Assembly (NCBI RefSeq): GCF_028288225.1
Contig: NZ_JAQBOC010000007.1
Coordinates: 87,020-151,019 of the forward strand
DNA length: 64,000 nt
Direction: 5' to 3'
Source: Mucilaginibacter sp.
GTDB taxonomy: Bacteria > Bacteroidota > Bacteroidia > Sphingobacteriales > Sphingobacteriaceae
The notes under the pieces: generated by a model
Database searches by the model: none
What the model was told of the DNA's origin: nothing
The model's input: the letters and a program-made list of their open reading frames with translations, nothing else
Translations under genes and position numbers: made by a program
Part shown: in pieces, positions 1 to 17,017 of the stretch
Numbering within the stretch: position 1 is the first letter of the stretch
How the letters are laid out: each line of letters opens with the position of its first letter

Positions 1-1600
1 CTGAAAATGCGGTTTTCTCAACGGAATCTGTCGAATACTCCAATTCTTCCCAAAAGCTGGTGAATTGCTCATCATCATAGCTGGCAAGGATGCCGTATAT
101 GGGCTTAGCGTTTTTATCAAGTGCATTATTGCCGAAGTAAACCACCTGCCTTATGGGAGTATCCGTAACGCTTGGCCCAATGGTGTTGCGTTGGGCAGCA
201 GTAAGCAGCTGTGTTTTTTGCGCAGGCGTAAGCGGTGCACCAATACATTTTTCAACATTACTTACCAGGTCTCCGGCGGCGGCGAATGGTGTTTCCATAA
301 TCACCGGATTTTTACTTTTTTCAATCTCAACCAGGTACTGCTTTGGAAAGCCTTCCGCAGCCAGCGCTTTCAGTACGTCAGTTGTTACTTCGTAGCTAAT
401 GATAGGCGCCGGATAGGCCGGCGGATTGGTGGCATTTGCCATCCACCACGGCGAATCAAAAAACATTCCAACCTTATACGAAGGCTGCAGCACTGCCGAC
501 TCCAGGTACAATTGCACTTTGCGGTGATTAAGCACATCCAGCCCTTTATGATCTCCGTAACGGGTAGCCTGTGCCACAAGGTCTAACGGACCGCGGGGCA
601 TAGCCAGCCATGCTGCCGAGGTGGTTTTTGTGGCTGCTTTTTTATCCGGCTTATCACGTTTTGCAATGCTGTAATGAATTACATTATCAATTTCCAAAAT
701 GGAATGCAGGCGGGTGTTTGGGTGATACTCAAAATTGACGCCTTTATGTTTTGCCAGCTTCACAATGGCATTAAACAGGGCATTGAACATGCTCGAATAG
801 CCGTGCGTAAGCGTTTTGTATTCTGTACCAGGCGTAAACTCGTTATTGGCCTGGAAAGCAACGGCTGAATTCCAGTTGATAACGTTCGAGGTATAGCCAT
901 TGCCATCATTGGTGTAGTTATACCCTTCAGACCCCAGCTGATCAAACATCAGGTTCCAGTAGCCTATATTTTTTAACAGGTCGCCTTTTTGAAAAACAGA
1001 TGATTCCGGCGTATCAGCGGTGATGCGCCCATCCTGGTAAAATTGGCACCATTCGGCACGGGTTTGCGGGCCGGTATGCGCGGTGACAGCCAATTTTTCA
1101 ACTATGTTAAAGCCATTATCGGGCGGCTGACTTGCGCCATCGTTCTTTACGTTATACGGGGCCGGGTTTGTTTTGCTAATATCATTATAATACATGTTTT
1201 TGGTGCGCAAATAATAAAGCGGGTTGGTAGACTCATTAAACGGCACCGAATATTTATCGAGGTCAAGCTCTTTAATAACGGTGGTAACCAGGCGGTGCCC
1301 GCCGCTCATAGCCCCATTATTTCCGTCCCACTCCGAGTAGCGCATGCCGCCCAGCTCCAGGTATGATTTTGTTTTATCGTTTTCATAATGCCAGGTACAA
1401 ACACGGGCACCGGCAGCGCGGGTCCCCTGGTGCTCTTTCGAGAAATCGTACTGGCCCCAGTCATACAGTTCAAGGGTATCGCCCTTGTTAAGCAGCTTTG
1501 ATTGATCCTGTTCAATGTTGGCTTCGCCGTTCAGCAGACGCCAGGCCGTATAAAGCCCGGAGGCACCTGCGCCAAAAATAGAATACGTTTTATTTTTCAT
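1..1600 (-). CDS. FAD-dependent amine/amino-acid oxidase, partial (C-terminus beyond window)
   Basis: Reading the minus strand from an ATG at 1600 gives a frame that runs to the window edge; the stretches I translated had no stop, so the 3' end is outside. The N-terminus has a dinucleotide-binding fold with GAGASG at about residues 10-15. ELGGMRY at about residues 82-88 is the second flavin motif typical of flavin amine oxidases and L-amino acid oxidases. Later stretches (for example YKVGMFFDSPWW) also fit that family. There is no signal peptide, so it is probably cytoplasmic. Known chemistry of the family is FAD-linked oxidation of amines or amino acids; the substrate cannot be read from the sequence. 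Alternative: another FAD-dependent oxidoreductase of the same superfamily. Confidence 0.75.
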   Translation of the reverse strand, partial: MKNKTYSIFGAGASGLYTAWRLLNGEANIEQDQSKLLNKGDTLELYDWGQYDFSKEHQGTRAAGARVCTWHYENDKTKSYLELGGMRYSEWDGNNGAMSGGHRLVTTVIKELDLDKYSVPFNESTNPLYYLRTKNMYYNDISKTNPAPYNVKNDGASQPPDNGFNIVEKLAVTAHTGPQTRAEWCQFYQDGRITADTPESSVFQKGDLLKNIGYWNLMFDQLGSEGYNYTNDGNGYTSNVINWNSAVAFQANNEFTPGTEYKTLTHGYSSMFNALFNAIVKLAKHKGVNFEYHPNTRLHSILEIDNVIHYSIAKRDKPDKKAATKTTSAAWLAMPRGPLDLVAQATRYGDHKGLDVLNHRKVQLYLESAVLQPSYKVGMFFDSPWWMANATNPPAYPAPIISYEVTTDVLKALAAEGFPKQYLVEIEKSKNPVIMETPFAAAGDLVSNVEKCIGAPLTPAQKTQLLTAAQRNTIGPSVTDTPIRQVVYFGNNALDKNAKPIYGILASYDDEQFTSFWEELEYSTDSVEKTAFS

Positions 1601-1696
1601 ATGGATTTAGGTTATGTATGGTTGATTTATTTTTTTATTAGTATATAACTGTTATTCTTTCCTTACCGCTAAGCATCGACCGGGTGAGTCGATCAG

Positions 1697-1933
1697 CCAT
1701 GCATTCGCACCAATGCATTGGCGTCAATATCGCTCGTATATTTTACTCACCCGGTCGACGCGTCACTGGACTTGCCCTCTCTTCGCTGCTGCGCGGAAAG
1801 AGGGTGAAAAAATCAATCCGCCATGCGTTTGCGCCAATGCATTGGCGTTAATATCGCCCGCAGATTTTACTCACCCGGTCGACGCTTCGCTGGACCTGCC
1901 CTCTCTTCGCTGCGCGGAAAGAGGGCGAAAAAG
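1697..1933. repeat. Two tandem imperfect direct repeats, about 115 bp each
   Basis: The gene-free stretch 1601-1987 is largely two direct copies of one unit, 1697-1812 and 1821-1933. Shared blocks include CCAATGCATTGGCGT, TTTTACTCACCCGGTCGACG and a block ending GCGCGGAAAGAGGG. The copies differ at scattered bases and by one 3-bp indel. No convincing start and stop pair is present. It looks like a non-coding intergenic repeat family; its mobility is unknown. Confidence 0.7.
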
Positions 1934-1987
1934 TTCTGTGAGAGCGAAGCTAAATCCTTTCCTTAAGAGAGGATTTAAGTGAGGCGC

Positions 1988-3763
1988 TTACTCCAGCCCC
2001 AGCCTGCGCATTTGTCCCGGCAGGTCCTTTTCGGGGATCACTACCTGCACCAGCGTAGGCTTATTGGTTTTTGTTTTTAATTTTTCAAGCACCGCATCCA
2101 GCTCCTTTACGGTTTTAACGGTGTGGCCTTCTGCGCCGAAAGCTTTGGCAAGGGCCAGGTAATCCCATTTTGGCAGGATATCAAACGCATCAAACTTATG
2201 CTGCGGACCGGGCTCGAACGAACTCATATCGACATAAACCTGCTCAATGGCATACACGCCGTTGCTCATCACAAATATTACAGCATTAAGGTTGTTGCGC
2301 GCCAGGGTTGAAAGCGACTGGCAAACCATCATAAAGCCGCCGTCGCCGGCTACGGTCCAGGCCCGTTTGCCGCTGCCAAGCTGTGCACCTGATGCTGCCC
2401 CGGTTTCGTAGCCGATACACTGCCAGGCGGCCGACGAGATAAAGCTGTTTTGCTTTAACCCGTAAGCATTGGTAGCCACATAAAGCGACGAGCTAACCCC
2501 ATACGTCATCACGATATCCTTCAGCATGTTGTTATCGGTCAAAAATTTCATGGAGTGCTGGAAAAACCGGTTATAGGTAATGGTATCCGGCTTGTCATTC
2601 CAATGCGGATCTGAGTTGGAGAGCCATGGCTCCGGGTATTTAGGCTGCGTGGGCGCTATTGTTGCCAGCGGGTAGCCTTTGGTGGTTTTAAACAAGTGCA
2701 GCAATGCTTCCATAAAATCCTTCATGGTAACATTTTCATAAATAAAGTACCCGGCGCGGATCTGCTTAGTCGTGGCCAGCACCATGTCGGCATACTTGCT
2801 TTCAATAAACACCAGGTAATCGTCGGTAATTATGGTTCCAAGGGTAAGGAAGCAATCGGCGGCGGTAACCAGGTCAGTTACACTCTTAATAGATGCAGCA
2901 TCAGCGTAGGTGCCAATAAATTTGCTGCCTCCTTCATCAAGCACGGTTTTACCCAGGCTGGTGGTAGTATATAAAAAGCCGCTTGCATCTATGAGCTGCT
3001 GCAGCAGATCTGCCAGGCCGTGCCGAAGCACTTCTACCCCGGCAAATATCATCGGATTTTTAGCGGCTGTGAGCTGCGCCCAGGCCTGCGCCACCGCATT
3101 TTCAAGCGCCAGCGGATCACTCTTTATCACCAGCGGCTTTAATGGTTCTTTCGGTGGCTGCGGGCAGGGCTCCCCCCAAACTTCTTTATAACAGGCAATG
3201 TAAACCGGTTTTTTATGGGTGATAGCTGCTATCAGTAAATTATCAATTGCCGCCGCCGCACCAACAGAAGTGCTTAGCGTTATGGCGGCAACAGTTACAT
3301 GCGAATATACTTCCTGGTCGGCCTGCAGGTTGCCGGTTGAGTGGTGGTAAAGCACATCGTACATTTTACCGATCTGCCGGGCATCAGCACCCGGGCAGGC
3401 GCTGATAACCACGACAGGACTCAATTCAACAAGCGCCCCGGCAATAGCATTGAGCGCGCTGAATGTGCTTACTCCATATTGCAGGGAAACAGCCGCGAGG
3501 CCGCGCGTACGCCCGTAAGCATCAGCGGCATAGGCAGCATCAAGTTCGTTAACGGCGCCAATGGCAGTAACACCGTCGAAATATTCAAGGGCCTGCGTAA
3601 AATGTTTAACATAATCGCCGGGGATTTGAAATACTTCGGTAACATTAAGTTGTTTTAGTCGGGTTAAAAGGTAATCGGCAACGGTAAATGGCTGGGCTTG
3701 ATTTTTATTTAAGGCTTTAGCGGTAATTGGACTTTCATGAAACCGCAGATTTTGGTTCGACAT
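1988..3763 (-). CDS. Thiamine-diphosphate 2-keto acid decarboxylase (pyruvate/indolepyruvate decarboxylase family)
   Basis: The 591-residue protein is full length for the family. The N-terminal domain holds PGDY with the catalytic-type Asp at residue 50, NELDAAYAAD with the cofactor-activating Glu at residue 73, and the paired histidines H140-H141 (YHHSTG). The thiamine-diphosphate/Mg motif starts with GDGG at residue 473 and ends about 30 residues later at SNG. Retention of D50, E73 and the His pair points to a non-oxidative 2-keto acid decarboxylase rather than acetolactate synthase. The expected reaction is 2-keto acid to aldehyde plus CO2, perhaps on aromatic or branched substrates; the specificity is inferred only. 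It is cytoplasmic and stands alone. The ATG at 3763 is taken because the family homology begins soon after it. Confidence 0.85.
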   Translation of the reverse strand: MSNQNLRFHESPITAKALNKNQAQPFTVADYLLTRLKQLNVTEVFQIPGDYVKHFTQALEYFDGVTAIGAVNELDAAYAADAYGRTRGLAAVSLQYGVSTFSALNAIAGALVELSPVVVISACPGADARQIGKMYDVLYHHSTGNLQADQEVYSHVTVAAITLSTSVGAAAAIDNLLIAAITHKKPVYIACYKEVWGEPCPQPPKEPLKPLVIKSDPLALENAVAQAWAQLTAAKNPMIFAGVEVLRHGLADLLQQLIDASGFLYTTTSLGKTVLDEGGSKFIGTYADAASIKSVTDLVTAADCFLTLGTIITDDYLVFIESKYADMVLATTKQIRAGYFIYENVTMKDFMEALLHLFKTTKGYPLATIAPTQPKYPEPWLSNSDPHWNDKPDTITYNRFFQHSMKFLTDNNMLKDIVMTYGVSSSLYVATNAYGLKQNSFISSAAWQCIGYETGAASGAQLGSGKRAWTVAGDGGFMMVCQSLSTLARNNLNAVIFVMSNGVYAIEQVYVDMSSFEPGPQHKFDAFDILPKWDYLALAKAFGAEGHTVKTVKELDAVLEKLKTKTNKPTLVQVVIPEKDLPGQMRRLGLE

Positions 3764-3922
3764 AACGATAAGCGTATAGGTTTGACGTAAATATTAGTAT
3801 AAAGCTATAATATTCTTTTCATTTTAAAAAGCGATTTTTTAACTATTATTTTAATGTTAGCTGACAGTTAAATTTTAGGCGGGCGGAAAATGTCATTAAG
3901 TAAAGGCAAAACACAAATGTAA

Positions 3923-4045
3923 TTCTCCCCAAAAGCATTGTAGCCCCACCCAACCCTCCCCGGAAGGGAGGGCTTAGAAAGAGCGAAGCCAAAGTCTCCC
4001 CAACCGGGGGAGATTTAGAGGGGGCTACCAAGCTGTTGGGGAGAA
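3923..4045. repeat. MITE-like element with 25-bp terminal inverted repeats
   Basis: Positions 3923-3947 and 4021-4045 are inverted copies differing at only a few positions (TTCTCCCCAAAAGC on the left against GCTGTTGGGGAGAA on the right). The interior is C/G-run rich (CCCTCCCCGGAAGGGAGGG and CTCCCCAACCGGGGGAG), which is typical of short intergenic repeats in this phylum. A short minus-strand open frame inside it follows the repeat and is unlikely to be coding. No target duplication is obvious. It accounts for most of the gap 3764-4194. Confidence 0.6.
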
Positions 4046-4119
4046 CTATTTTTGTATTTTCAGTTTAACTTCATAATACCGCACACCATCACGTCATGCC
4101 GTCCGAGCTGGTCGGATCG

Positions 4120-4175
4120 GCACCCCACAGGACAGGTAACCCGCTTGTATAGCGTAAACCTGGCATGTGGGGTGC
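4120..4175. repeat. Inverted repeat / hairpin downstream of the 4.2 kb membrane gene
   Basis: Arms 4120-4137 and 4158-4175 (GCACCCCACAGGACAGGT against ACCTGGCATGTGGGGTGC) pair at about 15 of 18 positions around a 20-base loop. It sits just past the stop of the minus-strand membrane protein gene. It could act as a transcript end, although no long U run follows in that direction. Confidence 0.45.
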
Positions 4176-4194
4176 TGAAAAAAGCAGGATATTT

Positions 4195-4842
4195 TTATTT
4201 ACCCCCACCCGTCGGCGGCACCAAATTAGTAGTAGCCGGGCTAACCGGGGCCGAAGTATTCTCCGTGGTCTTCAACCCAACATAGGTGCTGCTGCTGATG
4301 CCCATCAGGATCAGTAATTGCGACGTAATAACGGTGTCGTCCGGCATTTTGCTCTTGCCCGAAACGTAGGCTATGTAGATGGCGCCAATAATAAGCGTCC
4401 AGATCACGCTTTGCAGGCGGTAGATGCTCACGCCCTTCTCGTCGGATATAATATCGATCAAAAACCCTTCCGACGGATAATCCTGCTGCGGGATGCTGGT
4501 ACCCTGGGTATCCTTCTGGCTGTTATCAATCACCTTTGACGCTATCGTAGTGCCCGCGGCAATGCCCAGCAGCGTTAAGTTTACGACAGCCAGCACCGGC
4601 GCCGCATATTCCTGCGGCGATGCATTGAGGTACACATAAATAAACGAGCTGATGATGATCACCGTCCAAAAAGCCAGCTGACTCCGGCCAAGACTAAAAG
4701 CGGCCCGCGGTTTAGTTTTGCCATCCGTTTCGGCCAGCATACCAAAATTGTCATTGTTAAACACTACGTTGCGCAGCATCGACGATTTAATTGCAACTAC
4801 TATTACAATTATTGAAATTACGGCAAGAATTAAGTAATACAT
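4195..4842 (-). CDS. Uncharacterised inner-membrane protein, about 5 helices
   Basis: I place the start at the ATG at 4842 (first residues MYYLILAV), giving 215 residues. The open frame continues 70 codons upstream but that extension is compositionally odd and lies over intergenic sequence. Hydrophobic segments fall at about residues 2-20, 51-68, 76-97, 146-165 and 175-193, with a polar loop at about 100-140 and a Pro/Thr-rich tail ending GGGK. The start is preceded by an A-rich CTAAAACCAAT leader resembling that of the glutathione peroxidase gene at 12434. I do not recognise a named family and assign no function. Confidence 0.65.
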   Translation of the reverse strand: MYYLILAVISIIVIVVAIKSSMLRNVVFNNDNFGMLAETDGKTKPRAAFSLGRSQLAFWTVIIISSFIYVYLNASPQEYAAPVLAVVNLTLLGIAAGTTIASKVIDNSQKDTQGTSIPQQDYPSEGFLIDIISDEKGVSIYRLQSVIWTLIIGAIYIAYVSGKSKMPDDTVITSQLLILMGISSSTYVGLKTTENTSAPVSPATTNLVPPTGGGK

Positions 4843-5242
4843 GATAAATATTGGTTTTAGGTTTAAAATTGATTTTACAGCAAACAAGCATTCCCCCGCC
4901 CTATAACAAAGCCGCCGGAACACATAAAATAAGCACGTGCAAAATAAGGTGAGTACATGCGCGATAAAGTTTAGTATAAAGTTAAAATAAATCTGGTAAA
5001 TAAAAAGGGGGATGGGGAAGAATTTGGGGGGATGGGGAATGATTTGGAACACGGAGCCACTTCTTTTAATTAACCTGAGCCAGAATAAGATTTAATCGAA
5101 AAGTTATAACATATTATTTAAAGAAACACGTATGTTTTGCTTTCAAAATGAAAATTTATTGTAGGCAATTCTACCACTAAAAAATAAATGATTTTTATTT
5201 CTAAAACGAAGAGATATATTTTAATAGTTATATTTGACTAAA

Positions 5243-5393
5243 CAACAAAGGAGCTAATAGCTCCTTAATTGTTAACTTTCTGAAGGCCGATAAACTTGAT
5301 AGACTCTCGGAAACTAATCTGATTGATGACGGTAAAATTCCGTCCGGCTTGACCAGAGAAAAGCCCCGGGGTACCGACCCGTGGGCTTTTTTG
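5243..5393 (+). ncRNA. Candidate structured small RNA with its own promoter and terminator
   Basis: A TATATTTG -7 box at 5229-5236 would start a transcript near 5243. The expected RNA begins with a hairpin AAGGAGCT-AAT-AGCTCCTT (5247-5265), whose stem is extended by AACAA/TTGTT. It continues with a short GACGG/CCGTC stem near 5328-5344, flanked by GGCCG and CGGCT that could close an outer helix. It ends in an intrinsic terminator. No credible open frame is contained. I do not recognise the fold as a known class. No -33 TTG is evident, which weakens the promoter. It could instead be the 5' leader of a lost gene. Confidence 0.4.
5359..5392 (+). terminator. Intrinsic terminator
   Basis: Stem AAAAGCCC...GGGCTTTT with a G/C-rich loop and a T run ending at 5392. 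It closes the candidate small RNA and insulates the A/T-rich island that follows. Confidence 0.75.
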
Positions 5394-5417
5394 TTTCTTA
5401 TTCAAATTTATAAATAA

Positions 5418-5540
5418 TTTACAAAAAGTTTGTATATAACAAACTTTTTAATCGACTTAGTTATTGCAGATCCACCTTATTACAGCTTAGTTGATTTATT
5501 TCGTGGCAGTGGTGGTTTAGCATTAGGTTTTATTATATGA
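5418..5540 (+). pseudogene. Relic joining two DNA methyltransferase motifs
   Basis: One stop-to-stop frame, ending at TGA 5538-5540, reads LVIADPPYY followed at once by SLVDLFRGSGGLALGF. The first piece is the catalytic motif IV (DPPY) of an adenine or N4-cytosine methyltransferase. The second matches motif I at the N-terminus of C5-cytosine methyltransferases (VDLFxGxGG). No ATG precedes it, and the rest of either enzyme is missing. I read it as a deletion scar where two methyltransferase genes were fused and lost. It sits directly left of an intact methyltransferase operon, suggesting turnover of modification systems at this site. Confidence 0.6.
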
Positions 5541-5738
5541 CTTGTCATATCGAAAGGTTGAAGTAACTGGGGCAAACCGCAATCTTAATTTAGAGTTTGC
5601 TTCAATGGTGCATCTTGCGAGAAGGTGGTAAAAAATTATGGACAACAGCGCTTATAGCGAAATAAAATTAACTATTTTCCTTTTTGGGGACATATGTGTA
5701 TTTAATGTTAAAAAAAGTATAATTTGGTGAAAAATTTA
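5541..5738. other. Degenerate A/T-rich stretch before the methyltransferase operon
   Basis: A 24-codon open fragment at 5560-5631 (starting EVTGANRN, ending LARRW) looks like the tail of a lost protein that I cannot identify. At 5718-5726 the sequence TATAATTTG resembles a -7 box only about a dozen bases before the methyltransferase ATG, so the operon mRNA may have a very short leader. Confidence 0.35.
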
Positions 5739-6581
5739 ATGACCAATAATATAAACCTAATACCTTCAAAAAAAATCATCCAAGCTAAACCATTTTTAAG
5801 ATGGGCAGGTGGAAAAACTTGGCTTATTAAACATCTTAATAACGTTAAGACGTTTAAATTCAATAACTACCACGAGCCTTTTCTCGGTGGCGGGGCGACC
5901 TTTTTTTATATTAATCCTTCTGAAACCTCGTATTTATCTGATCTAAATGAGCAATTAATAGATACATATATCGCGATTAGAGACAATGTTAACTTAGTTA
6001 TAAATAAATTAAAGACTTTTGAAAACTCAGAGAAACAATATTATATTATTAGAGACACAGAATTTTTAGAGATTCATGAACGCGCTGCAAAATTTATCTT
6101 TTTGAATCAAACTTCTTTTAATGGTATATATAGAGTCAATCTAAAAGGGGTATATAATGTACCCTATGGCTACAGAAATAAAAATTTCCTGGACGAAGAA
6201 TTGTTAAGACTATCCAGTACATCTTTAAGAAAAACTGAACTTGTTGCATCAGATTTTGATATTGTTAGAAATAACATAAGGGAAGGGGATTTAGTCTTCT
6301 TGGATCCCCCTTATACCGTGTCACATAACGATAATGGATTTATTAAGTATAATGAAAAACTATTTTCACTCGATGATCAATATAGATTAAGTAACCTAAT
6401 TTCCTATATAAAAGAACAAAATGCTTACTATATATTAACTAATGCTGCACATAATAAAGTGAAGGAAATCTTTGAAAAAAATGATAGTCTCCATGAATTA
6501 CCCAGGGCTAGTTTAATTGGTGGCACGAATGCAGTAAGGGGTAGTTTTAATGAATTTGTATTTACCAATCTTGCCATATGA
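5739..6581 (+). CDS. D12-class (Dam-type) DNA N6-adenine methyltransferase
   Basis: Transfers methyl from S-adenosylmethionine to adenine in DNA. The 280-residue protein has FLRWAGGK at residues 19-26, the SAM-binding EPFLGGGA at 46-53, NQTSFNGIYRVN near 123-134 and the catalytic DPPY at 189-192. The order is motif I first, then motif IV, as in the Dam/M.DpnIIA alpha group. Those relatives methylate GATC, but the target here is inferred only. A TTG start 15 bases upstream is possible; ATG 5739 is preferred. Its stop overlaps the next gene by 4 bp (ATGA), so translation is coupled. The gene is much more A/T-rich by eye than the 1-5 kb genes. No GATC-type restriction enzyme gene is adjacent. 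Confidence 0.9.
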   Translation: MTNNINLIPSKKIIQAKPFLRWAGGKTWLIKHLNNVKTFKFNNYHEPFLGGGATFFYINPSETSYLSDLNEQLIDTYIAIRDNVNLVINKLKTFENSEKQYYIIRDTEFLEIHERAAKFIFLNQTSFNGIYRVNLKGVYNVPYGYRNKNFLDEELLRLSSTSLRKTELVASDFDIVRNNIREGDLVFLDPPYTVSHNDNGFIKYNEKLFSLDDQYRLSNLISYIKEQNAYYILTNAAHNKVKEIFEKNDSLHELPRASLIGGTNAVRGSFNEFVFTNLAI

Positions 6582-8878
6582 CGATACAGGAACTTTTTCG
6601 AGATAAATTTAACGAATTGATGGTTCAAGATGGCTCCCTTGCGGCCGAACTTCGGAAAAGACAGGATGAGTATGAAAAAATCTCTATTAACCCGGACCAG
6701 CTAACTAAATACGTTGATTTAAGGTGGGAGGTTGATAAGGAGTATAAAACAAGAATAAGAATCAGAAAACAAAAAAACATAGAAATATCTTTCGAAGATA
6801 ACATTTGGACTCTCTTTGCAAAACTAGGTTTTAGTTTACTTAACAAGGACAGGCGACTATCAATTCCTTACAACGACAATTTCACAGCTGGGCAGCAAGT
6901 TGATGTACTAGCAATTGATGATGAGTCAATTTTAATTGTTGAGTGTCGCTCCTGTCTTGGTGACCCTCAAAAAGGAGATTTTAAAGAGACAATTGGAGAA
7001 ATAGGCGGAAAGAAAGATGGGATAATAAAAAGCCTAAAGCAATTATTTCCAAACTCAAAACATAAAATTAAATTTATACTTGCTACTAAGAATTATTACT
7101 TAACAGAATCCGATTTAGGACTTCTTCAAAAATATGAAATCCTCCATTTCGACGAAGAAACTTTAGAATATTATCAAGACCTATCGAAACATTTAGGGCT
7201 AGCAGCAAGATATCAGTTACTTGGAAATATCTTTTCGGGCCAAATAATTCCAGAAATTGAAAACAAAATCCCAGCAATATTGGGTAAAATGGGAGGACAT
7301 ACATATTATTCTTTTTCTATTGAACCCGAAAGACTATTAAAAATTGCATACGTTTTACATAGAAATAAGGCTAACAAGAAATTAATGCCAACATATCAAA
7401 GACTTATTAAAAAGTCAAGATTGATTTCTATACAACATTTTATTGAAAACAAGGGATTTTTCCCAAATTCCCTTGTGATAAATATAGAAACTGAGAAAAG
7501 CCTTCATTTTGAAAGAGCAAATACCCAAGTAGATTCATCTATTTCAAAAATTGGAATATTGCATCTCCCAAAAACGTACCGATCAGCTTATGTAATTGAT
7601 GGACAACATCGATTATATGGATATGCTAATTCTGAATATAGACAAACTAACACGATTCCCGTTGTTGCTTTTATAAATTTAAATAGAACTGAGCAAGTAC
7701 GGCTTTTTATGCAAATAAATGAAAATCAAAAGGCTGTACCTAAGAATCTGCGCAATACTTTAAATGCGGATCTGCTTTGGAATTCTTCCGATCTTGAAGA
7801 ACGAATAAAAGCGATTAAATTACAAGTGGCTCAAGATTTAGGCGAAGACATAGATAGTCCTTTATATGATAAAATAATAATAGGGGAAAACACAAAGACG
7901 AACCAACGGTGTATTACTATTGACTCAGTAAAAACAGCATTAGATAGAAGTAATTTTTTTGGTGTTATTAATAAAAATACCATAAGAAAAGAAGGCAGCT
8001 TTTTTGTTGGAGACAGTGAAAGCACTTACTGGAAGTTGCTTCCATTTTTAAAGGAAGCCTTCAGATATTTTCAAGAAAACTTAAAAGATGAGTGGAAAAT
8101 AGGAGAAGGGAATGATGGTATCTTAACAATTAATGCAGGAATAATCAGTCTCATAAGGATTTTTAGCGATGTTATTGATCACTTAACAGCAGAAAGAAAA
8201 ATAAATGCAAAAAGTGAAATAACAGAGAAGATCATCGAAGAAAGCAAATTTTATTTCGATCCAATTTTAGCGTTTTATAAAAACCTTACAACTGAAGAAA
8301 GGCTTGATTTGAGGAAAAGTTACGGAGATGCTGGCAGAGCCAAGTATTGGAGAAAGCTTCAACAAGTTATTGCGCAATCAAGACAAGATTTCAATCCTGA
8401 GGGTCTATTAAAATATTGGGAAGACGAAGCAAAACAATATAATGAGGATTCTTTCAAAATGATAAGAGATATTGAAACGTCTTTGAAAGAAAACTTTAAG
8501 GAAAAACTAGAAGACCATTATGGCCCTAACTGGTTTAAAAAGGGAGTTCCGCCACAAGTTCAAGATTCTTCGGTTTTAATGGCAAATCAAAAAAATAGGG
8601 AATTAGAAGATAATGAAAAAGAATATGATCATTGGGATTGTATCAACATTATTGATTATCGCAGGATAGCTGTTTTTGGAAGCAATTGGAAAGATATATT
8701 CGATAAGGTTTATACTAAACCAGGAGAAGAAAAAATCAATGGTGGGAAAGATGAAAAGACGAAATGGATGCAGAAATTAGAGCGGATAAGAAACCAAAAT
8801 TTTCATTCTTACAGTGTAAAAAAAGACGAATTTGAATTTTTATGCGAAATACACGAGTGGCTGTTAGAAAAGGATTAA
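6578..8878 (+). CDS. PD-(D/E)xK-like / DGQHR / HEPN-like fusion protein
   Basis: The 766-residue protein overlaps the methyltransferase stop by 4 bp. Residues about 75-190 look like an Mrr/PD-(D/E)xK fold: QVDVLAIDD with D109, then a strand ending VECRS with E122, where R124 replaces the usual Lys. Residues about 235-500 carry the DGQHR signature (YVIDGQHRLYGY, DGQHR at 341-345), the hallmark of the DndB-like family; DndB itself is known as a regulator of DNA phosphorothioation operons. The C-terminus has RNQNFH at 738-743 within a helical stretch, which fits the Rx4-6H motif of HEPN ribonucleases or Swt1-type HEPN domains (inference). Soluble, no signal peptide. Probably a sensor/effector of the operon rather than a classical restriction enzyme. 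Confidence 0.75.
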   Translation: MTIQELFRDKFNELMVQDGSLAAELRKRQDEYEKISINPDQLTKYVDLRWEVDKEYKTRIRIRKQKNIEISFEDNIWTLFAKLGFSLLNKDRRLSIPYNDNFTAGQQVDVLAIDDESILIVECRSCLGDPQKGDFKETIGEIGGKKDGIIKSLKQLFPNSKHKIKFILATKNYYLTESDLGLLQKYEILHFDEETLEYYQDLSKHLGLAARYQLLGNIFSGQIIPEIENKIPAILGKMGGHTYYSFSIEPERLLKIAYVLHRNKANKKLMPTYQRLIKKSRLISIQHFIENKGFFPNSLVINIETEKSLHFERANTQVDSSISKIGILHLPKTYRSAYVIDGQHRLYGYANSEYRQTNTIPVVAFINLNRTEQVRLFMQINENQKAVPKNLRNTLNADLLWNSSDLEERIKAIKLQVAQDLGEDIDSPLYDKIIIGENTKTNQRCITIDSVKTALDRSNFFGVINKNTIRKEGSFFVGDSESTYWKLLPFLKEAFRYFQENLKDEWKIGEGNDGILTINAGIISLIRIFSDVIDHLTAERKINAKSEITEKIIEESKFYFDPILAFYKNLTTEERLDLRKSYGDAGRAKYWRKLQQVIAQSRQDFNPEGLLKYWEDEAKQYNEDSFKMIRDIETSLKENFKEKLEDHYGPNWFKKGVPPQVQDSSVLMANQKNRELEDNEKEYDHWDCINIIDYRRIAVFGSNWKDIFDKVYTKPGEEKINGGKDEKTKWMQKLERIRNQNFHSYSVKKDEFEFLCEIHEWLLEKD

Positions 8879-9066
8879 TAATGCTTTGTTGGAAAGAAAT
8901 TTAGGGGCTGATGTTTCTATATCCATCCTCAACATCTTCAAATTGGCCTTTTATGAATAGTATTATTTAACAAAGTATACGCAATTTGATTCTTTGTAAA
9001 GCTAAGCAGACTCGCAGAAATAGATATATAAATGGAATTTTGTAAAGATCTTTTAAAAATAAGAAA

Positions 9067-9600
9067 ATGAGTTTCTCTTTAAAAAGCATAAAAATGGATC
9101 CAACTAATAAGCCTCGATTTCAAAAAACTCTAAAGATCTTTTTTTACAATGTTTTGGGCATAATTTTACCTTTCCTCTTATCATTAATTCCAATAATGAT
9201 TCTCAATAAAACAGACATGATATATTCCTTTTTGGATCAAGGTCAATTTTTTTTGTTTAGTGCAGGATTGCTAACTAGTGCTATCTTAATCTTCAGTGAA
9301 AACAGATCAGCAATTAAACTTAATTTTGATAAATTTCTAGATTTTATATCTATTTGGCTCCTAATATTTTGCTCTGCTTTTTTTGCTATTATTTATTGTT
9401 TATCGTTAATTGATTTACCTCCTTGCTATCCTATTGCAAAATGGTTTATTAGATCAACTTCATTAATTCTGTTTATCATTGCTTTAATTTCAATTTATAG
9501 AAGTGTTTACATTGATTCCATTAAAGTAAATGCAAAAGTTGATGTTAAAACAAAAAGCGCTAATGAAATCGAATCACTTATGGGGAAGCTTAATACTTAA
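9067..9600 (+). CDS. Four-helix membrane protein of the methyltransferase/DGQHR island
   Basis: The 177-residue protein has four hydrophobic segments at about residues 25-47, 58-78, 91-113 and 128-148 and a short Lys-rich cytoplasmic-type tail. There is no signal peptide or known domain. It follows the fusion gene by 188 bp and ends 4 bp before the second DGQHR gene, so it probably belongs to the same operon. Small multi-helix proteins in such loci often act as membrane-damaging effectors or anchors; that is analogy only. Base composition is as A/T-rich as its neighbours, so it most likely moved with them. Confidence 0.7.
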   Translation: MSFSLKSIKMDPTNKPRFQKTLKIFFYNVLGIILPFLLSLIPIMILNKTDMIYSFLDQGQFFLFSAGLLTSAILIFSENRSAIKLNFDKFLDFISIWLLIFCSAFFAIIYCLSLIDLPPCYPIAKWFIRSTSLILFIIALISIYRSVYIDSIKVNAKVDVKTKSANEIESLMGKLNT

Positions 9601-9604
9601 AGAA

Positions 9605-10711
9605 ATGCAAGAAATAACATTCAAGTGCTTGAAGTGTAAGCAACCGATAGGTGAATTCTATATTGGTGTAATGAATTATGATGATCTTATAAAAATATCA
9701 TACGCCGATATTAGAAGATTGGAAACGGGCACAGAAATGAGAGAGGTAGAAGTGTATACGGGTATACAAAGAGAGTTAGCTCCTAACCGAGTAAAGGAAA
9801 TCGCAAAGTATGTAAATATGGTTGATTCAACTTTTCCAACAGGGGTTATTTTACACATTGAAGAAAAGGATATAATCTATTCAGAAGAAAACAGCACAAT
9901 GACTTTGCCTTTCAAAGATACCGTTGCTAAGGTTCTAGATGGTCAACATAGAATAGCTGGATTAGAGTTCTTTCCTGAAAGAGGGAGTGAATTTCAAGTT
10001 AATGTTACCATTTTTATTGGAATGGAATTAGAAGATCAAGCCATAGTTTTTGCGACGATAAATAAAACTCAAACAAAGGTTAATAAATCGTTGGTGTCTG
10101 ATTTGTATGATTTTGCGACTAATAGAAGCCCTCAAAAGACAGCTCATAATATTGTAAGAGCATTGAACCAAAAAGAGGGTAGTCCGTTTTATGAAAAAAT
10201 TAAAATCTTAGGTGTTGCAAATGACAAAGAAAAGGAAACGATAACACAAGCTACATTTGCTGAAGGCATTATAAAATATATATCCCGTGATGCGATGGCA
10301 GATAGAGATATTTATAAGCGTGGGAAAACCCCCAATAAATTTACAGACCTTGAATTACTAAGTAGGCCATTAAGAAATATTTTTATTGACGAACAGGATC
10401 ATATAATAGCACAAATATTATGGAATTATTTTGACGCGGTAATGAATAAATGGCCAAATGCATGGAATTTGGTAACGCCGGAAATGATCTTAAATAAATC
10501 AACTGGTTTTCTTGCTCTTATGAAATTTTTCAAGGATGCGTATATCAGTTTTGGAAAAATTGGCCAAGTAGTAACTATAGAAGAATTTTCAAGCATATTC
10601 AATAGAATAAATTTACTTGATAAAGATTTTAATAGGGGAAACTATTTACCGGGAACAGCCGGACAAGCAAAACTTTATAATGAACTCATGCTTGAAAGCG
10701 GCTTAAATTAA
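9605..10711 (+). CDS. DGQHR-domain protein (DndB-like)
   Basis: The start at ATG 9605, 4 bp after the membrane gene, is chosen over an upstream ATG at 9530 that would overlap it. The 368-residue protein opens with CLKCKQP (two Cys two residues apart, no second pair seen), and has KVLDGQHRIAGL with DGQHR at residues 112-116, followed by FATINKTQTKVNKSL, the usual second conserved block of the family. Relatives are DndB and uncharacterised DGQHR proteins found near DNA-modification genes. Two DGQHR proteins in one operon suggest they may form mixed oligomers or act as sensor and regulator. Function is not established. Confidence 0.8.
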   Translation: MQEITFKCLKCKQPIGEFYIGVMNYDDLIKISYADIRRLETGTEMREVEVYTGIQRELAPNRVKEIAKYVNMVDSTFPTGVILHIEEKDIIYSEENSTMTLPFKDTVAKVLDGQHRIAGLEFFPERGSEFQVNVTIFIGMELEDQAIVFATINKTQTKVNKSLVSDLYDFATNRSPQKTAHNIVRALNQKEGSPFYEKIKILGVANDKEKETITQATFAEGIIKYISRDAMADRDIYKRGKTPNKFTDLELLSRPLRNIFIDEQDHIIAQILWNYFDAVMNKWPNAWNLVTPEMILNKSTGFLALMKFFKDAYISFGKIGQVVTIEEFSSIFNRINLLDKDFNRGNYLPGTAGQAKLYNELMLESGLN

Positions 10712-11921
10712 TTGCTATAACATCTTTTATCCACAACTGCCGCAAGGGTCTTCTTGATCCCTTTGCCCAGTAGTAAAAGCCGTCCGATGCCCTTGCTGGC
10801 ATTCTCACCAACAAACACGATAAAGCCCTTTATGTAAAAGCATTTAAAAAGCCCACTACATTCAGGTACATACCACAAGCATCGCGTTTTGTTGGTGGAC
10901 AACACTAACAAAGGCGTAGAAGAATCAAAACAAGCAGTGGCCTGTGCGATTATGAATATTATATTTTGTTTTTAAAGGCATTCATGAGCTCCCTAAGTCG
11001 GTTCCTTCCTCGGGAACGGGAAGGCAGGGGTTTTGCGAACTGTGTTACCCTTGCTATTCAAACCTGACAAGCGTAAAAGCTTGGCGTAGAAACCCCTCCC
11101 TACCCTCCCAAGGGAGGGAATCGCACGGGGCCGGGCTTTTTATAATCTTCCGAACAGTATTGGTAAGAACACCAACAAAGGCATGAAAAAGACCATTCGC
11201 AGCTACCGCACGCAAATCAGCATAGCGGCGATTTATCAGCCGGATAAGATCCTTCACTGCGTTCAGGATAACAAATTTTGGCCAACTCAAAAACCGGAAC
11301 ATGCTGATTATAAATAAATTACCGGCGCATAAACAGAAATATAAATATAATAGCGCTTGACTATCAGCAACTTACAGTTTTTTTGCGCATAAATAAAATT
11401 GCAAAACGCTTGATAATCAGCATGTTTCACTTTGTTCCGCCCCGTTCCGCTGAAAAATGGAACGCTTTGCCGACGTGTACCCGGCTATTCACCACCGCAT
11501 GCCACGCATAGTACAGAGGCCTTTGATGCCCTTGTTGGTGTTGTCACCAACAAGCAGGATGAAGCCGCAAAAAAGCATTGGAGAGTGTTGCACTTAGGGT
11601 ACATACCATAAGCACCATCGTTTGTTGGTGACAACACCACAGGTGTTCGGAAGATTGTAAAAAAGCGAGGGCCTGTGTGATTCCCTCCCTTGGGAGGGCG
11701 CTGGGAGGGGTTTCTACGTCAAGCTTTTACGCTTGATTAGCAGTGGTACCATAGTTCGCGAAACCCCTACCTTCCCTTCCCCAAGGAAGGAATCGCACGA
11801 CCCACTGCCTGTTTTGATTCTTCCGAACACCTCTGGTGACAACACCAACAAAGGCAAACCCCACTAACCAAAAAAAGGCCTCCGGATTCCCGAAAGCCTT
11901 TTCATTTTAAAATTTTCCTGT
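10712..11921. repeat. Gene-free 1.2 kb nest of imperfect direct and inverted repeats
   Basis: No credible gene is present. Direct copies: 10786-10915 and 11525-11640 share GATGCCCTTG, TCACCAACAA, GGTACATACCA and TTTGTTGGTG. Inverted copies: about 10990-11160 and about 11643-11800 are reverse complements over most of their length, sharing TTCGGAAGATT, TGCGATTCCCTCCCTTGGGA and GGGGTTTCTACG. Inside, GCGCATAAA...CGCTTGA(C/T)(T/A)ATCAGCA occurs twice (about 11324 and 11383). A further copy of CACCAACAAAGGC lies near 11840. The pattern suggests repeated insertion of one intergenic palindromic family, right beside the A/T-rich island. Confidence 0.65.
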
Positions 11922-12434
11922 TTACAAATACTTTGTAATATCCGCAGATAACGGTGTAGTTGCTGAGCGGAAACGGTGAATCAGATTACCATTTTCGTCG
12001 ATCAGGAATTTTTCAAAGTTCCATTTAATTTCGCCTGTAAAATCAGGGTTTGGTGCCTCTGTTAAGTATTTAAACAAAGGATCAATGTCATCTCCCTTTA
12101 CGCTAACTTTTTCGCTGAGCGGGAAGGTAACACCATAATTTTTTTCGCAAAATGTTTTGATCTCGGAGTTCGCACCCGGTTCCTGCTGACCAAAATTATT
12201 TGCCGGGAAACCTACAACAACCAGCTTGTCTTTGTACTGGTCGGCCAGTTTCTGTAATTCTTTGTATTGTGGCGTAAATCCGCATTTTGATGCAGTATTC
12301 ACCACCAATACTTTTTTCCCTTTGTATTTGGCAAGTGAAAAAGCTTCGCCGTCGATAGATTTTAGTTTAAAATCATAAACAGATTTTGGGCCGGTAACAA
12401 ACATAAGGGCAAAAATTAAAGCAAGTATTTTCAT
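11922..12434 (-). CDS. Glutathione peroxidase family thiol peroxidase
   Basis: The 170-residue protein has the family signature NTASKCGFTPQY with the peroxidatic Cys at residue 51, FPANNFGQQEPG with Gln84, and KWNFEKFL with Trp138 and Asn139, completing the Cys-Gln-Trp-Asn tetrad. It begins with a hydrophobic stretch (MKILALIFALMF), so it is probably exported to the periplasm or membrane-attached. The family reduces hydrogen and lipid peroxides; bacterial Cys members usually draw electrons from thioredoxin, so the donor need not be glutathione. It is a single gene on the minus strand. The ATG follows an A-rich CTAAAACCAAT leader. Confidence 0.92.
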   Translation of the reverse strand: MKILALIFALMFVTGPKSVYDFKLKSIDGEAFSLAKYKGKKVLVVNTASKCGFTPQYKELQKLADQYKDKLVVVGFPANNFGQQEPGANSEIKTFCEKNYGVTFPLSEKVSVKGDDIDPLFKYLTEAPNPDFTGEIKWNFEKFLIDENGNLIHRFRSATTPLSADITKYL

Positions 12435-12498
12435 GATATTAAAAATTGGTTTTAGTGTAATTAGATATACGGTTGTTTTTAAAGATGCGTTGCCTCGC

Positions 12499-12602
12499 TA
12501 TTTGTCATTTTGAACGCAAAGAAAAATTTTCTATTGTAGATAAGTCTGCGTTCATGCCTTGTCCCGTGTTCGTGTCCGCTCGCTCCCGCTCAGAATGACA
12601 AA
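12499..12602. repeat. Short intergenic palindrome-bounded repeat
   Basis: Bounded by TGTCATTTTGAACG on the left and GCTCAGAATGACA on the right, which are inverted with respect to each other. The inside holds CGTGTCCGCTCGCTCCCGCTC. This is a typical intergenic repeat and no coding frame is apparent. Confidence 0.45.
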
Positions 12603-12617
12603 AGTGATAAGGTAAAA

Positions 12618-13049
12618 TTAACCAATAAAGCTCCTCTTATTCAAATAAAAATCTTCTTTTATTGTCATTTTTTTCCTGGCAGGGGCTGATTTATCGGTGT
12701 AGCCCAGCAAATGCAGTGCGCCGTGGATGATAACGCGGTGTAACTCGTCCGTTTCGGTAGTGCTGAATTTGAGTGCGTTCTCGCGGATGCGGTCGATAGA
12801 AATAAAAATATCGCCAACAATAGTATTAGCGATCTCTGAATTATCAAAAGTTATAATGTCGGTATAAGTATCGTGATCCAGGTACTGCTGGTTTATTTGC
12901 AGCAGGTAATTGTCTGAGCAAAAAACATAGGTAAGCTCTTTTAGCTTAAACCCTTCAGCCTGTATGGTTTCGGTTATCCACTGCCTTACGGCTGTTTTGT
13001 TTTTTAATTTATAGGTAATGTCTTCTTCAAAAAACTGTATGGCAGGCAT
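12618..13049 (-). CDS. ybeY: YbeY endoribonuclease (rRNA maturation factor)
   Basis: A 143-residue protein with the zinc-site block IIHGALHLLGYTDK at residues 107-120. H109 and H113 are two metal ligands; the third position, usually His, is Asp119 here, a substitution I believe is common in this phylum. TDIITFDN at 63-70 is the other family signature. YbeY acts in 16S rRNA 3' processing and ribosome quality control in the cytoplasm. The start shares one base with the stop of the upstream RsbW-like gene, so the two are translationally coupled within the operon running from 16817 to 12618. Confidence 0.92.
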   Translation of the reverse strand: MPAIQFFEEDITYKLKNKTAVRQWITETIQAEGFKLKELTYVFCSDNYLLQINQQYLDHDTYTDIITFDNSEIANTIVGDIFISIDRIRENALKFSTTETDELHRVIIHGALHLLGYTDKSAPARKKMTIKEDFYLNKRSFIG

Positions 13050-13471
13050 TAGATCTTAAAGTGAAGTTCAACTTCGTTCCCTTTGGTATTAAATATGCAC
13101 TGGTCTGCCAGGTGTTTAAGAATAAATACACCCCGGCCGGTCAGGTTTTCCAGGTTTTCGGGAGCTGTTGGGTCGGGCAGGTTATTGTAATCAAAGCCCT
13201 CGCCTTCGTCGGTAATGGTCCATATAATGCGCTTGCCTTCTACATCAGCATTCACAATAACTTTTTTATTTTCGTCAAGCTTGTTGCCGTGAACAATAGC
13301 GTTGTTAGCCGCTTCGCTCAGGCATGTCATCATGTTAGCAAAGGTGTCTTCACTTATATTGTGTTTGTCGGCAATTTCTTCTATCAAAGTTTCCAGCAAA
13401 CTTATGCTTTCTTGTTTTGAAGGAAGCTGCAACGTGTACAGTTTGCTTGCCTGAACATTTGATTGGTCCAT
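13049..13471 (-). CDS. RsbW-like ATP-binding protein (anti-sigma-factor kinase family)
   Basis: A small GHKL ATPase. The N-box is LSEAANNAIVHGN, then TDEGEGFDYNNLP (G1-type) and GRGVFILKHLAD (G2-type). It is about 140 residues, the usual size of stand-alone RsbW/SpoIIAB proteins, which bind or phosphorylate partners controlling a sigma factor. I take the ATG at 13471, which forms TGACATG with the stop of the upstream gene; an ATG at 13495 would overlap that gene by 23 bases. No STAS antagonist or sigma factor gene lies nearby, so its partner is elsewhere. It sits between the DUF4175-type gene and ybeY in one operon. Confidence 0.85.
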   Translation of the reverse strand: MDQSNVQASKLYTLQLPSKQESISLLETLIEEIADKHNISEDTFANMMTCLSEAANNAIVHGNKLDENKKVIVNADVEGKRIIWTITDEGEGFDYNNLPDPTAPENLENLTGRGVFILKHLADQCIFNTKGNEVELHFKI

Positions 13472-13472
13472 G

Positions 13473-16400
13473 TCATTTAACGTTGAGTAGATCAAAGTAT
13501 GATTTTATTTTTAATTTATAATAAAAATTTAGTTCAGGCGGAACGGTCCGTACCTGTTCTGTTTGTTTTTCTTTGGCTTGCTGGTATTCCTGCAAGGCTT
13601 TAATGTATCCCGGAGGAACATCTTTACCCGCTTTGCTTTCGCGCTGCTGATCCTGTTCCCGCTCCTGTTCCGCTTTTTCAGCCTCTAATAAACGAGTCTG
13701 AATTTGCTGCTGCCGCTTAATGGCATCCTCCGTTATTCTCCTGTTTACGAGATCACGCTCAGTTTGTTCCATTTCTTTGGAAATTTTATCCAGATTCCCT
13801 AAACCGCCCGTGCCATCCTTGTTATCCTCGCGGTTTATTTGCTGTAACGCCTCCCTGATCTGTTGTTGCTGACGCGCTAATTTAGCTAATTGTTCGCTTA
13901 TTTTTCCATTATTTCCATTTTGACTTTTCCCCTGGTTTCCCTGCTGTCCCTGTTGCTGCATTTGCTCCCTTGCCTTCTGCATATTTTGGTTTAACTGCTG
14001 CTGCATTTTTGCCAGTTGCGATACCGACTGCTTCTTTCCTTTACCCTTGCCGCTGCCCCCTTTTTTCTGCATGTTCTGCAGCTGGTCAAGCGCTTCGCTT
14101 AGCAGCAGGGCCAGGTTATTCATTGACGTCATGGCAAATTGCTGGTTGCGGGAGGCCTCGGCCGTGCGCCGGTCGCCCAGGTTTTCAAGTGCATCCTCAA
14201 TATGATTATTTATCGAGGTAACCTCCGTGTTAACCGTACTCTGGATCTGCGGGATCCTCCTGCTCAGGGCATACAAGCTGTCCTCGGCGGTTTTGAGGTT
14301 ATCCTTTATGTTTTTTTGGTCCTGCGCCAGTTTAATATAGCCCGGGTCAGATGGGTTGGTGTTCTTCAACGTCTGCATCACTTTTTCCTGTTCGAATGAG
14401 CTATTAACGAGATTTTTTAACAATTCGCGTAATTGCTGCGCATCTACCATATTTGCACTCTCTTCGCCCTCCGCTTCCTTTTGCTGCATCTTATCTGCCA
14501 GCTGCTTCATTTCTTTAGCCGCCTGCTTTTGCGATTGCGATGCTTTTTTCGGGCTGTCCTTTTTCAGCTCGTCGCTGCTTTTTTCCATTTGCTGCTCAAT
14601 GCTTTGCGCTTCCTTCTGCGAGTCCTCAAACGGCTGCTTATGCTCGGCCTGGTCGTTAGTTTTTTTCAGGTCTTCCAGTGATTTTTTAATGTCCTGGAAA
14701 TCATTATTCAATTTTTGCTGATCTTTTTGCAGCTCCTGCTTATCGGCATTGGGTTGCTGCCCCTGATCAGATAGCTTTTGCTGCTGCTCCGAAAGCTTGT
14801 TCAGCTGGTCTACGTTCTGATTCAGCTTTTGTTCAAACTCCAGCTTTTTATAAAGCTCCAGCATGCGGTCAAGTTCTTTTTTTAACGATTTATTGTCCAC
14901 CTGCATTTTCTGCAGCTCATCCCTTGTTCCCTCTTTTTGCTCCTGCTCCATCATTGCCTGCAGGCGCTGCAGCATTTCCTGCATTTTAGGGTCCATCACA
15001 TTGTTAAGCAGCTGCTCCATTTGCTTTTGCTTTTCGGTAAGGTCCTTATCCTGCTGCTGGTTTTCCTGCCGGTTATATAGGTTCTTTTTGTTATCAGCCT
15101 GTACTTCCTTCACCAAATCCTCCAGATCCTTCCTTTTTTGTAAAAGATCGGCTATCTGTTTTTTCTCATCAAACGACAGGGTGTTTTTATTCAGCAGCAT
15201 CTGGTTTAGCTTCTGCGAATCTTTTTCTATCTGCCCGGCTAACTTAATGGCCGATTCCATTTTTTGTTTGATGACCTGCGTGCCGGTATTCAGCTGGTCA
15301 TTCAGCTCTTTTGCATCGGGGATGTTCAGCGTCCGCTCGGTCGACCGCACCCTTTTTGGCCCGTTCACATCGTCGTTATCGGCCACCTCAAAATAATAAG
15401 TTACCTGGTCGCCGGGTTTTATGCCCATGTCTTTCAGGTTCCAGAAATAAAAGAAGTCGGCCTGCGCCTGTGCCAGGTCGGCTTTAACCGGTTTGGTATA
15501 GTTTTTCAGGTTAGCTTTATCGCCTGGCGCGCCAACCGCATAATGAAATGTCAGAGCCGAAAAGCCATGGTCGTCCTGGATGCGGCCGTTAAAATAAAGC
15601 GTTTTCAGGCTCACAGAATCCTGTTTTTCCTGTACCAGGATGGATGGCATTTCGTCCGTAATAACATTAACCCGGTAGCTGGCCGAGTCGCTGTGATTTG
15701 CCTGCGTATTTACAGGGGTAATTTTGTAGGTGCTGTTTTTGACGATCCTTTCCCTGTGTTCAAAAACATCAGGCGCGGTTGATGTTACGGTGCCGCCAGC
15801 GCCATTCATATTAAACAGCAGCGCCGAAGCATTTTGTGTATGCAGGTTCCAGGTAACAACGGTGCCGGCGGGGACGGTAAGGTCACCCGCGTTTTTCAGT
15901 GTTTCATTTTTTTTATGCAGATAGGCCGGGTAGTTCAAAGCAACGTCAAAATGCAGCAGCGCCGGACGCAGGTTCACCTTTATTTCGTACGGGGTCGATG
16001 TAAAACCATTTGCCGTAAGCTTAAACACCGTGTTTTGCTGCAAATTGGTAAACAGGTAATGGAACCTGCTGATGTTTTCCTTATCCAGCTTAAAAGCAGT
16101 GTTGGCAGTTTCCACATAAACATCGGCAGGCAGCTTATCGCCATCAAGTTTCAGGTCGAGCTTCAGATCATCACCCTGCACAACCGACAAGCTTTTATTT
16201 TGAATGATGAAGTTAAACGGGGCAACGGGCCTGAAATATTCATTATGCCTGATAAGCCTTTTGGTGCTTTCCGTTAATATAGATGGCGCCGCAAAAGCAA
16301 TAATGCAGATCACCCCCGCCGGGAACAGCAGCCATTTCAAATATTTACTATTCTCCTTAAGGTTTACTGCTGATGGAAAGCTAACCGGTTTTAAAGTTTC

Positions 16401-16817: not shown

Positions 16818-17017
16818 GTTGCAGCGCAGGATATTTCAAGGTATTAAACGAAAATACGCTATTTATCATATCAGCGGTAAAATAAACTAAGATTTTTCAC
16901 AAGTTGATTGTTTTTCATAGGCGTTCAAGGAGGGCTGCGCCGTTTTTTGGATTTATCAGATTTTAGATTTTTTTGCGTTGTGCAAGAATTGCTATGATGC
17001 CCGGCGTTCTTTTTTTG

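Follow-up and report, generated by a model that had tools for sequence, protein, structure and literature searches.

A DNA adenine methyltransferase, a nuclease-DGQHR-HEPN fusion and a membrane protein-DGQHR pair in Mucilaginibacter: two separable modules of a candidate methylation-gated defence system

The stretch of DNA considered here, referred to as the window, comprises 64,000 nucleotides of a Mucilaginibacter sp. (RefSeq assembly GCF_028288225.1, contig NZ_JAQBOC010000007.1, positions 87,020 to 151,019). It carries four consecutive plus-strand genes (Table 1) that code for a D12-class adenine DNA methyltransferase (gene 1), a fusion of a PD-(D/E)xK nuclease fold with a DGQHR domain and a HEPN domain (gene 2), a small membrane protein (gene 3) and a second DGQHR protein (gene 4). 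The initial annotation, made from the sequence alone, presented them as a single defence operon. All the open reading frames were located with the spacing described there, and the A/T bias and the repeat nest on the right were found as well; the single operon was rejected, since only 3 of 80 genome loci have genes like 3 and 4 after the fusion in the same orientation. The annotation itself had named the absence of such genes from other copies as grounds for abandoning the operon, and in most other copies they are not seen downstream. The four genes are instead two separable modules, one formed by the methyltransferase and the fusion, the other by the membrane protein and the second DGQHR protein, and the modular system that they compose is real and widespread.

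Table 1. Features of the gene cluster, in positions of the window (TM, transmembrane; aa, amino acids)
Feature	Position	Strand	Remarks
Gene 1, D12-class (Dam/DpnM-type) N6-adenine DNA methyltransferase	5739..6581	+	ATG start; Pfam, TIGR00571 and DpnM match
Gene 2, 766-aa fusion, PD-(D/E)xK + ParB/Srx DGQHR + HEPN	6578..8878	+	4-bp overlap with gene 1
PD-(D/E)xK nuclease-fold domain, gene 2 residues 18-222	6629..7243	+	D109 and E122 kept; R at 124, not K
ParB/Srx-fold DGQHR domain, gene 2 residues 236-385	7283..7732	+	DGQHR codons at 7598-7612
Swt1-like HEPN domain, gene 2 residues 604-766	8387..8875	+	R-x4-H motif R738-H743 at 8789-8806
Gene 3, membrane protein of 177 aa with four TM segments by hydropathy	9067..9600	+	188-bp gap after gene 2
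Gene 4, DGQHR protein of a single domain (368 aa, start at ATG 9605)	9605..10711	+	4-bp gap after gene 3
A/T-rich block	5080..10716		GC 0.317; not present in closest congener found (G636)

Gene 1, for which a second in-frame start (TTG, 15 bases upstream of the ATG) is possible, contains the DPPY motif and is matched by Pfam MethyltransfD12 (E 1.6e-41) and by the TIGR00571 dam model (195 bits, cut-off 114.85). Its best solved relative is DpnM (2dpm, E 2.1e-45), followed by other DNA adenine methylases at about 1e-20. The neighbourhood of the fusion was followed in the best 80 of 160 genome loci encoding a relative, 76 of them assessable and four stopping at a contig edge, with methyltransferases called mostly by phmmer against gene 1 or against the methyltransferase of locus L034. 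The proposed association of methyltransferase and fusion was borne out, with a D12 gene at most four genes from the fusion in 74 of the 76 assessable loci. In 65 loci it immediately precedes the fusion in the same orientation, often with an overlap; in four the order is methyltransferase, DpnII-family restriction enzyme and fusion (PF04556, E ~1e-95 in both of those scanned); two hold a divergent methyltransferase with a weak score; and three have a methyltransferase within four genes, one of them a fragment at a contig end. The two loci whose fusion has no D12 gene that close are L050, where an MT-A70 methyltransferase lies directly upstream, and L061. Over 63 of the 65 pairs, the other two being too short and therefore dropped, methyltransferase and fusion distances are correlated (Mantel r 0.35, a value reached in none of 2000 permutations). 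Downstream of one methyltransferase-fusion unit, in L015, there is a gene with an AIPR domain (12574-14325, Pfam E 4e-43).

The mark set by gene 1 is likely N6-methyladenine at GATC, a target suggested by its likeness to DpnM and by the DpnII-type neighbours of its relatives. DpnII/MboI and BglII/BstYI are restriction systems with GATC-core sites; a DpnM-like methyltransferase is common to them and to the cluster, and DpnII or BglII/BstYI enzymes lie beside the genes of relatives, whereas the operon in the window lacks their restriction enzyme. A DpnII-family enzyme placed between methyltransferase and fusion points to GATC and, in addition, to the fusion as an extra arm.

The domain calls for D12, for DGQHR in genes 2 and 4 and for HEPN are supported by Pfam and TIGR models. 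TIGR03187 (DGQHR, cut-off 58.85) scores 160.6 bits with gene 2 and 214.5 bits with gene 4, and the Pfam DndB/DGQHR family matches both; HEPN_Swt1 gives 22.5 bits with gene 2, under its cut-off of 27.5. The HEPN assignment holds by motif, family model and fold combined: gene 2 has the R-x4-6-H motif of that superfamily within an all-helical HEPN-fold domain, with a predicted ribonuclease role. In the structure models the PD-(D/E)xK and ParB/Srx assignments hold at fold level, the former being nearest to restriction and nicking enzymes among the matches listed. The ParB/Srx fold and the DGQHR motif occur together in gene 2, and gene 4 is placed in that superfamily by sequence models only. Foldseek alone gave no match at E < 0.001 for either structure model, and the fusion profile, compared by sequence with solved structures, gave none at E <= 1. 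The fusion family has 4145 relatives at E <= 0.001 among 7997 candidates scored.

Active sites were aligned in 205 distinct fusion sequences from 220, of which 200 were scored and five set aside for gaps; the nuclease triad was scored as D, E or Q, and K, and the HEPN pair as R and H. Four residues of DGQHR (D, Q, H and R) do not vary in any of the 205 sequences. The triad is intact in 153 of the 200 and the HEPN R/H in 164, which divide into 126 with both sites, 38 with HEPN only, 27 with the nuclease only and nine with neither. To judge from these residues, the putative DGQHR reader stays constant across the fusion relatives and the effectors vary.

At the position of the catalytic lysine of the nuclease, K is found in 173 of 205 sequences and R in 12; the window copy has R124, together with an intact HEPN motif. 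The nuclease had been put forward as an effector, a claim that stands as regards the fold but not as regards the catalytic lysine of this copy, whose activity is predicted to be impaired by K124R. In the set made up of the window protein and the four relatives closest to it (P0001-P0005), P0003 has an intact triad and the other four have altered ones, each in a different way, which fits repeated inactivation. All the fusions that are followed by a same-strand membrane-DGQHR pair and have a readable triad (window, L010 and L032) are nuclease-dead, that of L026 being unreadable; the association is weak (n=3, two of them close relatives), and the triad is intact in L014, whose pair lies on the opposite strand.

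These active sites bear directly on the idea of an ordinary Type II-like restriction-modification (R-M) unit, in which the fusion would be the restriction enzyme for the site of the methyltransferase, the HEPN domain a passive or structural tail, and genes 3 and 4 unrelated cargo. A DNA methyltransferase gene with its DPPY motif is indeed present, it is directly upstream of the fusion in 65 of the 80 loci, the nuclease fold is of the appropriate kind and most relatives keep the triad. However, the window copy has the fold of a cognate endonuclease with R in place of the catalytic K, and 47 of the 200 relatives are without an intact triad, L032, L046 and L048 being among the loci that still carry the methyltransferase. 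Besides, a DpnII-family enzyme is already there in four loci, and the HEPN R/H motif is retained in the 38 nuclease-dead copies mentioned above, which makes this account unlikely.

The nine fusions in which both sites are lost (L043, L062, L066, L068, L071, L072, L074, L075 and L079) share a distinctive arrangement. All of them have, just upstream of the D12 methyltransferase that precedes the dead fusion, a DrmB-like gene (4e-44 with PADLOC DrmB in the only one scanned) and one for a NERD helicase (PADLOC RTasNERD-Hel 1.5e-46, Pfam NERD 6e-10); these two genes were matched in no other locus then examined. It is possible that the DrmB-like and NERD-helicase partners replace the dead effectors, and also that these two genes, the D12 methyltransferase and the dead fusion form a further defence system. 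The nine loci may be a single lineage, in which case they would count as one suggestive replacement event.

Regarding the second module, gene 3 has no family match in Pfam, PADLOC or NCBIfam. Gene 4, which has another in-frame ATG at 9530 that would overlap gene 3, carries DGQHR at 9938-9952, and the residues D112, G113, Q114, H115 and R116 are invariant in 18 aligned proteins; its family counts 2439 relatives among 4480 scored. A small gene with several TM segments lies directly upstream of the gene-4 relative in 33 of 33 entries with at least 70 bits (32 distinct, L001 being the window copy), mostly at spacings from a 4-base overlap to 11 bases apart. At 30-70 bits the proportion is 4 of 16, and below 30 bits 0 of 5. 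As background, 68 of 2020 distinct open reading frames in these loci are 130-230 aa long with at least two TM segments, the module's own included. There were 49 plasmid records with a gene-4 match, of which four were taken as gene-4 loci. In a later test, for which the prediction was fixed before a fresh draw, all eight new places above 80 bits were examined and seven had the upstream membrane gene; with ten viral contigs added afterwards, all of which had it, the result is 17 of 18. The sole miss (L200) is a gene with an internal stop, and two of the nine weaker entries of this test had an upstream membrane gene.

Gene 3 alone as query found only two other proteins, and profile iteration joined 17 of the 32 membrane proteins at E < 1e-3 together with a few others, so that homology of all of them is not established; Pfam gave one sub-threshold match and three blanks for the four examined (window, L124, L125 and L162). 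Judged by gene context, the membrane protein is a real partner of the second DGQHR protein and not of the fusion, so the earlier view of it as part of the unit is kept for gene 4 only.

The pair follows the fusion on the same strand in L010, L026 and L032, and lies on the other strand in L014; some loci end soon after the fusion, and the count of 3 in 80 is therefore a lower bound. In the Pedobacter jejuensis locus (L010) pieces of a Mutator-family transposase (4037-5265) are found between fusion and pair. In L032 a PIN-domain (PIN_8) gene comes directly after the pair (14353-15654). The pair also accompanies different modification systems. In L124, L125, L162 and a Roseateles locus (L143) it occurs with a D12 methyltransferase, and none of its neighbours, as far as scanned or annotated, was recognised as a nuclease; on an Acinetobacter plasmid (L142) a D12 methyltransferase is joined by a restriction enzyme annotated as BglII/BstYI; and in L144 the pair is near BglII/BstYI and MT-A70 genes. 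Dnd genes, as annotated, accompany it in L145, DndH in L129, and DndG together with DndH in L130 and also, but on the opposite strand, in L169; DndD- or Dnd-restriction-helicase-like proteins under their curated cut-offs are near it in L165, L166 and L168. On viral contigs a D12 methyltransferase adjoins the pair in 9 of 10 cases, the tenth being cut by the contig end. In four of these contigs (L210, L211, L213 and L214) the membrane protein is preceded by a gene that resembles, as read by eye, a CI-type repressor, which would place the cassette in a prophage lysogeny region.

The cluster was probably acquired horizontally. The GC content of the A/T-rich block compares with 0.425 in the rest of the window and is the lowest among 584 segments of equal size. 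In the closest of the congeners searched (G636, among 61 genomes), whose flanking TPP enzyme is 92% identical, window positions 1-3856 and 11812-16871 align at 82-88%; nothing between those flanks aligns to it except short repeat matches at 3910-4138, and G636 has ~4.4 kb of different sequence where the window has the A/T-rich block. In four more congeners the left flank alone aligns within the stretches compared, one of which stops at a contig edge. Just left of the operon, at 5455-5545, there is a degraded C5-methyltransferase-like stretch in which DPPY is followed by DLFRGSGGLALGF, which we take to be a C5-methyltransferase motif, and then by stops; the methyltransferase relic reported there is readable as such, but it is short and flanked by stops. 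On the other side, dense inverted and direct repeats with arms up to 78 nt occupy 10780-11880, between the operon and a glutathione peroxidase gene, and Rfam at its gathering threshold found no family in window positions 3700-12000, repeat nest included.

As had been stated, standard restriction enzymes and core genes of Dnd, BREX or Dpd are missing among seven proteins of this stretch scanned with Pfam and four with PADLOC and NCBIfam; adjacent DndC or DndD is likewise absent from the seven. Equivalog cut-offs are not reached by either DGQHR protein: DpdB gives 87 bits with gene 2 and 66 with gene 4 (cut-off 300), DGQHR_dnd_1 (TIGR04172) gives 83 and 192 (cut-off 450), and the DndB model gives 17.7 with gene 4 (cut-off 328) and leaves gene 2 unmatched. 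DndB/DGQHR_dnd_1 and DpdB nevertheless belong to the same DGQHR superfamily as genes 2 and 4, and the membrane-DGQHR pair is also found beside Dnd genes. PD-lambda-5 is presented as a compacted R-M and abortive infection system (PMC9519451); gene 1 resembles its B protein distantly (35 bits), whereas gene 2 matches no PD-lambda-5 PADLOC model, so its A and B proteins are not found together here.

Close parallels come from DndI and SspE. According to PMC11662687, both control a nickase through a ParB-like domain that acts as an NTPase reading the self mark. The same work reports that the ParB-like domain of DndI carries DGQQR, that its ATPase is stimulated by phosphorothioated self DNA, that ATP lets the protein tell marked from unmarked DNA, that R87A within DGQQR abolishes the ATPase and reduces defence, and that DndI harms cells without the mark (PMC11662687). 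The GmrSD study connects the DGQQR of GmrS with both the DGQHR domain and the signature of sulfiredoxin (PMC4619093). Like the fusion in the window, DndI and SspE combine a ParB-family domain with a nuclease and go with a DNA-modification system; they differ in having DUF262, HNH and phosphorothioation, whereas the cluster has DGQHR (PF14072/TIGR03187), PD-(D/E)xK plus HEPN, an adenine methyltransferase and a membrane arm.

The description of the locus as novel needs to be narrowed. The passages available of a 2013 HEPN survey list a Swt1-like HEPN fused to ParB (Saro_3948), the same domain pair as in the window fusion, as "mostly active", and propose HEPN backup effectors for R-M systems (PMC3710099). 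Those passages mention no N-terminal PD-(D/E)xK, fixed Dam partner or membrane-DGQHR module for this pair. In a 2024 reappraisal of Dnd, "membrane" and "transmembrane" occur once each, neither about a DGQHR partner (PMC10853773). In the open-licence PMC literature (subscription papers lie outside it) no description was found, among the papers listed, of the membrane-DGQHR pair or of the methyltransferase-fusion unit. What remains undescribed is thus the Dam pairing, the membrane-DGQHR module and the effector turnover. The fusion-methyltransferase unit is best seen as a modification-linked defence variant, and the membrane-DGQHR pair as the most novel part.

Taking these data together, and by analogy with DndI and SspE, we give slightly better than even chances to the cluster being a methylation-gated defence system in which DGQHR mark readers restrain effectors. 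The DGQHR domains would read the host's own methylation mark, presumably with NTP use, and hold the effectors off; unmarked invader DNA, such as that of a phage, would release them. In a first arm, control by the DGQHR domain of the fusion would fall on the HEPN ribonuclease and, wherever a relative's site is intact, on the PD-(D/E)xK DNA nuclease as well. As the nuclease of the window copy is predicted to be impaired, its main output is probably RNA cleavage. In a second arm, the second DGQHR protein would control the small membrane protein, whose probable action once released is to make the membrane permeable.

Several observations weigh against this reading. The whole-protein model of gene 2 has a pTM of 0.46, and the structural matches of the HEPN domain are modest, given that it is helical (best Foldseek E 2.0). 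Nuclease and HEPN sites are lost independently (Fisher p 0.83, n=200); together with the nine of 200 that lack both, this led us to reject the notion that one effector is always kept. L061 has no methyltransferase of any kind within four genes of its fusion. The fusion relatives on alphaproteobacterial plasmids of Novosphingobium and Rhizobium (L122 and L123) neighbour another DGQHR gene and radical-SAM and ATP-binding genes, with no methyltransferase in the stretch shown, so the DGQHR domain is not always tied to N6-methyladenine. In addition, the 2024 reappraisal reports DndB as an ATP-dependent negative transcriptional regulator (PMC10853773), in line with a different proposal, namely that the DGQHR proteins regulate the expression or activity of the methyltransferase, as put forward for DndB, with the membrane protein tethering or silencing gene 4. 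The sub-threshold score of gene 4 with DGQHR_dnd_1 and the occurrence of the pair with several modification systems fit such regulators, but the fused nuclease and HEPN domains are left unexplained, as is the retention of a membrane partner in 33 of 33 and 17 of 18 cases, and we hold this proposal to be quite unlikely.

The strongest contrary observation comes from P. jejuensis (L010), where the N-terminal half of the methyltransferase (1221-1628) is missing but an intact HEPN motif and the membrane-DGQHR pair persist; this cell should suffer if the mark were essential, unless another methyltransferase helps. The same locus tells against a selfish addiction module, in which loss of the methyltransferase would cause the fusion or the membrane pair to kill the cell, the mobile element being stabilised and phage defence a side effect. 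Relatives on plasmids and viral contigs, and an A/T-rich block missing from the closest congener found, would suit that explanation, but a truncated methyltransferase beside a HEPN-intact fusion and the pair would not, and we regard it as unlikely too.

Restriction-modification is understood as marking self and cutting the rest. If methylation-gated control by DGQHR readers is correct, one mark would also gate RNA cleavage and membrane damage through a conserved reader with effectors swapped by evolution. That would account for the recurrence of DGQHR/DndB proteins beside unrelated DNA-modification systems, and it would give a testable role to two large families, the 2439 relatives of gene 4 and the 4145 of the fusion, which databases mostly name by their motif. 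A broader view, which we advance tentatively and consider rather less than evenly probable, is that DGQHR domains as a class serve to read DNA modifications and can be fitted with interchangeable effectors, and that the minimal form of methyltransferase, membrane protein and DGQHR protein turns a missing methylation mark into membrane damage. This form, with no adjacent nuclease recognised, is found in Bacteroidota, Pseudomonadota and viral contigs. The same reader would then drive the nuclease/HEPN fusions, the replacement NERD-helicase and DrmB partners and the membrane effector.

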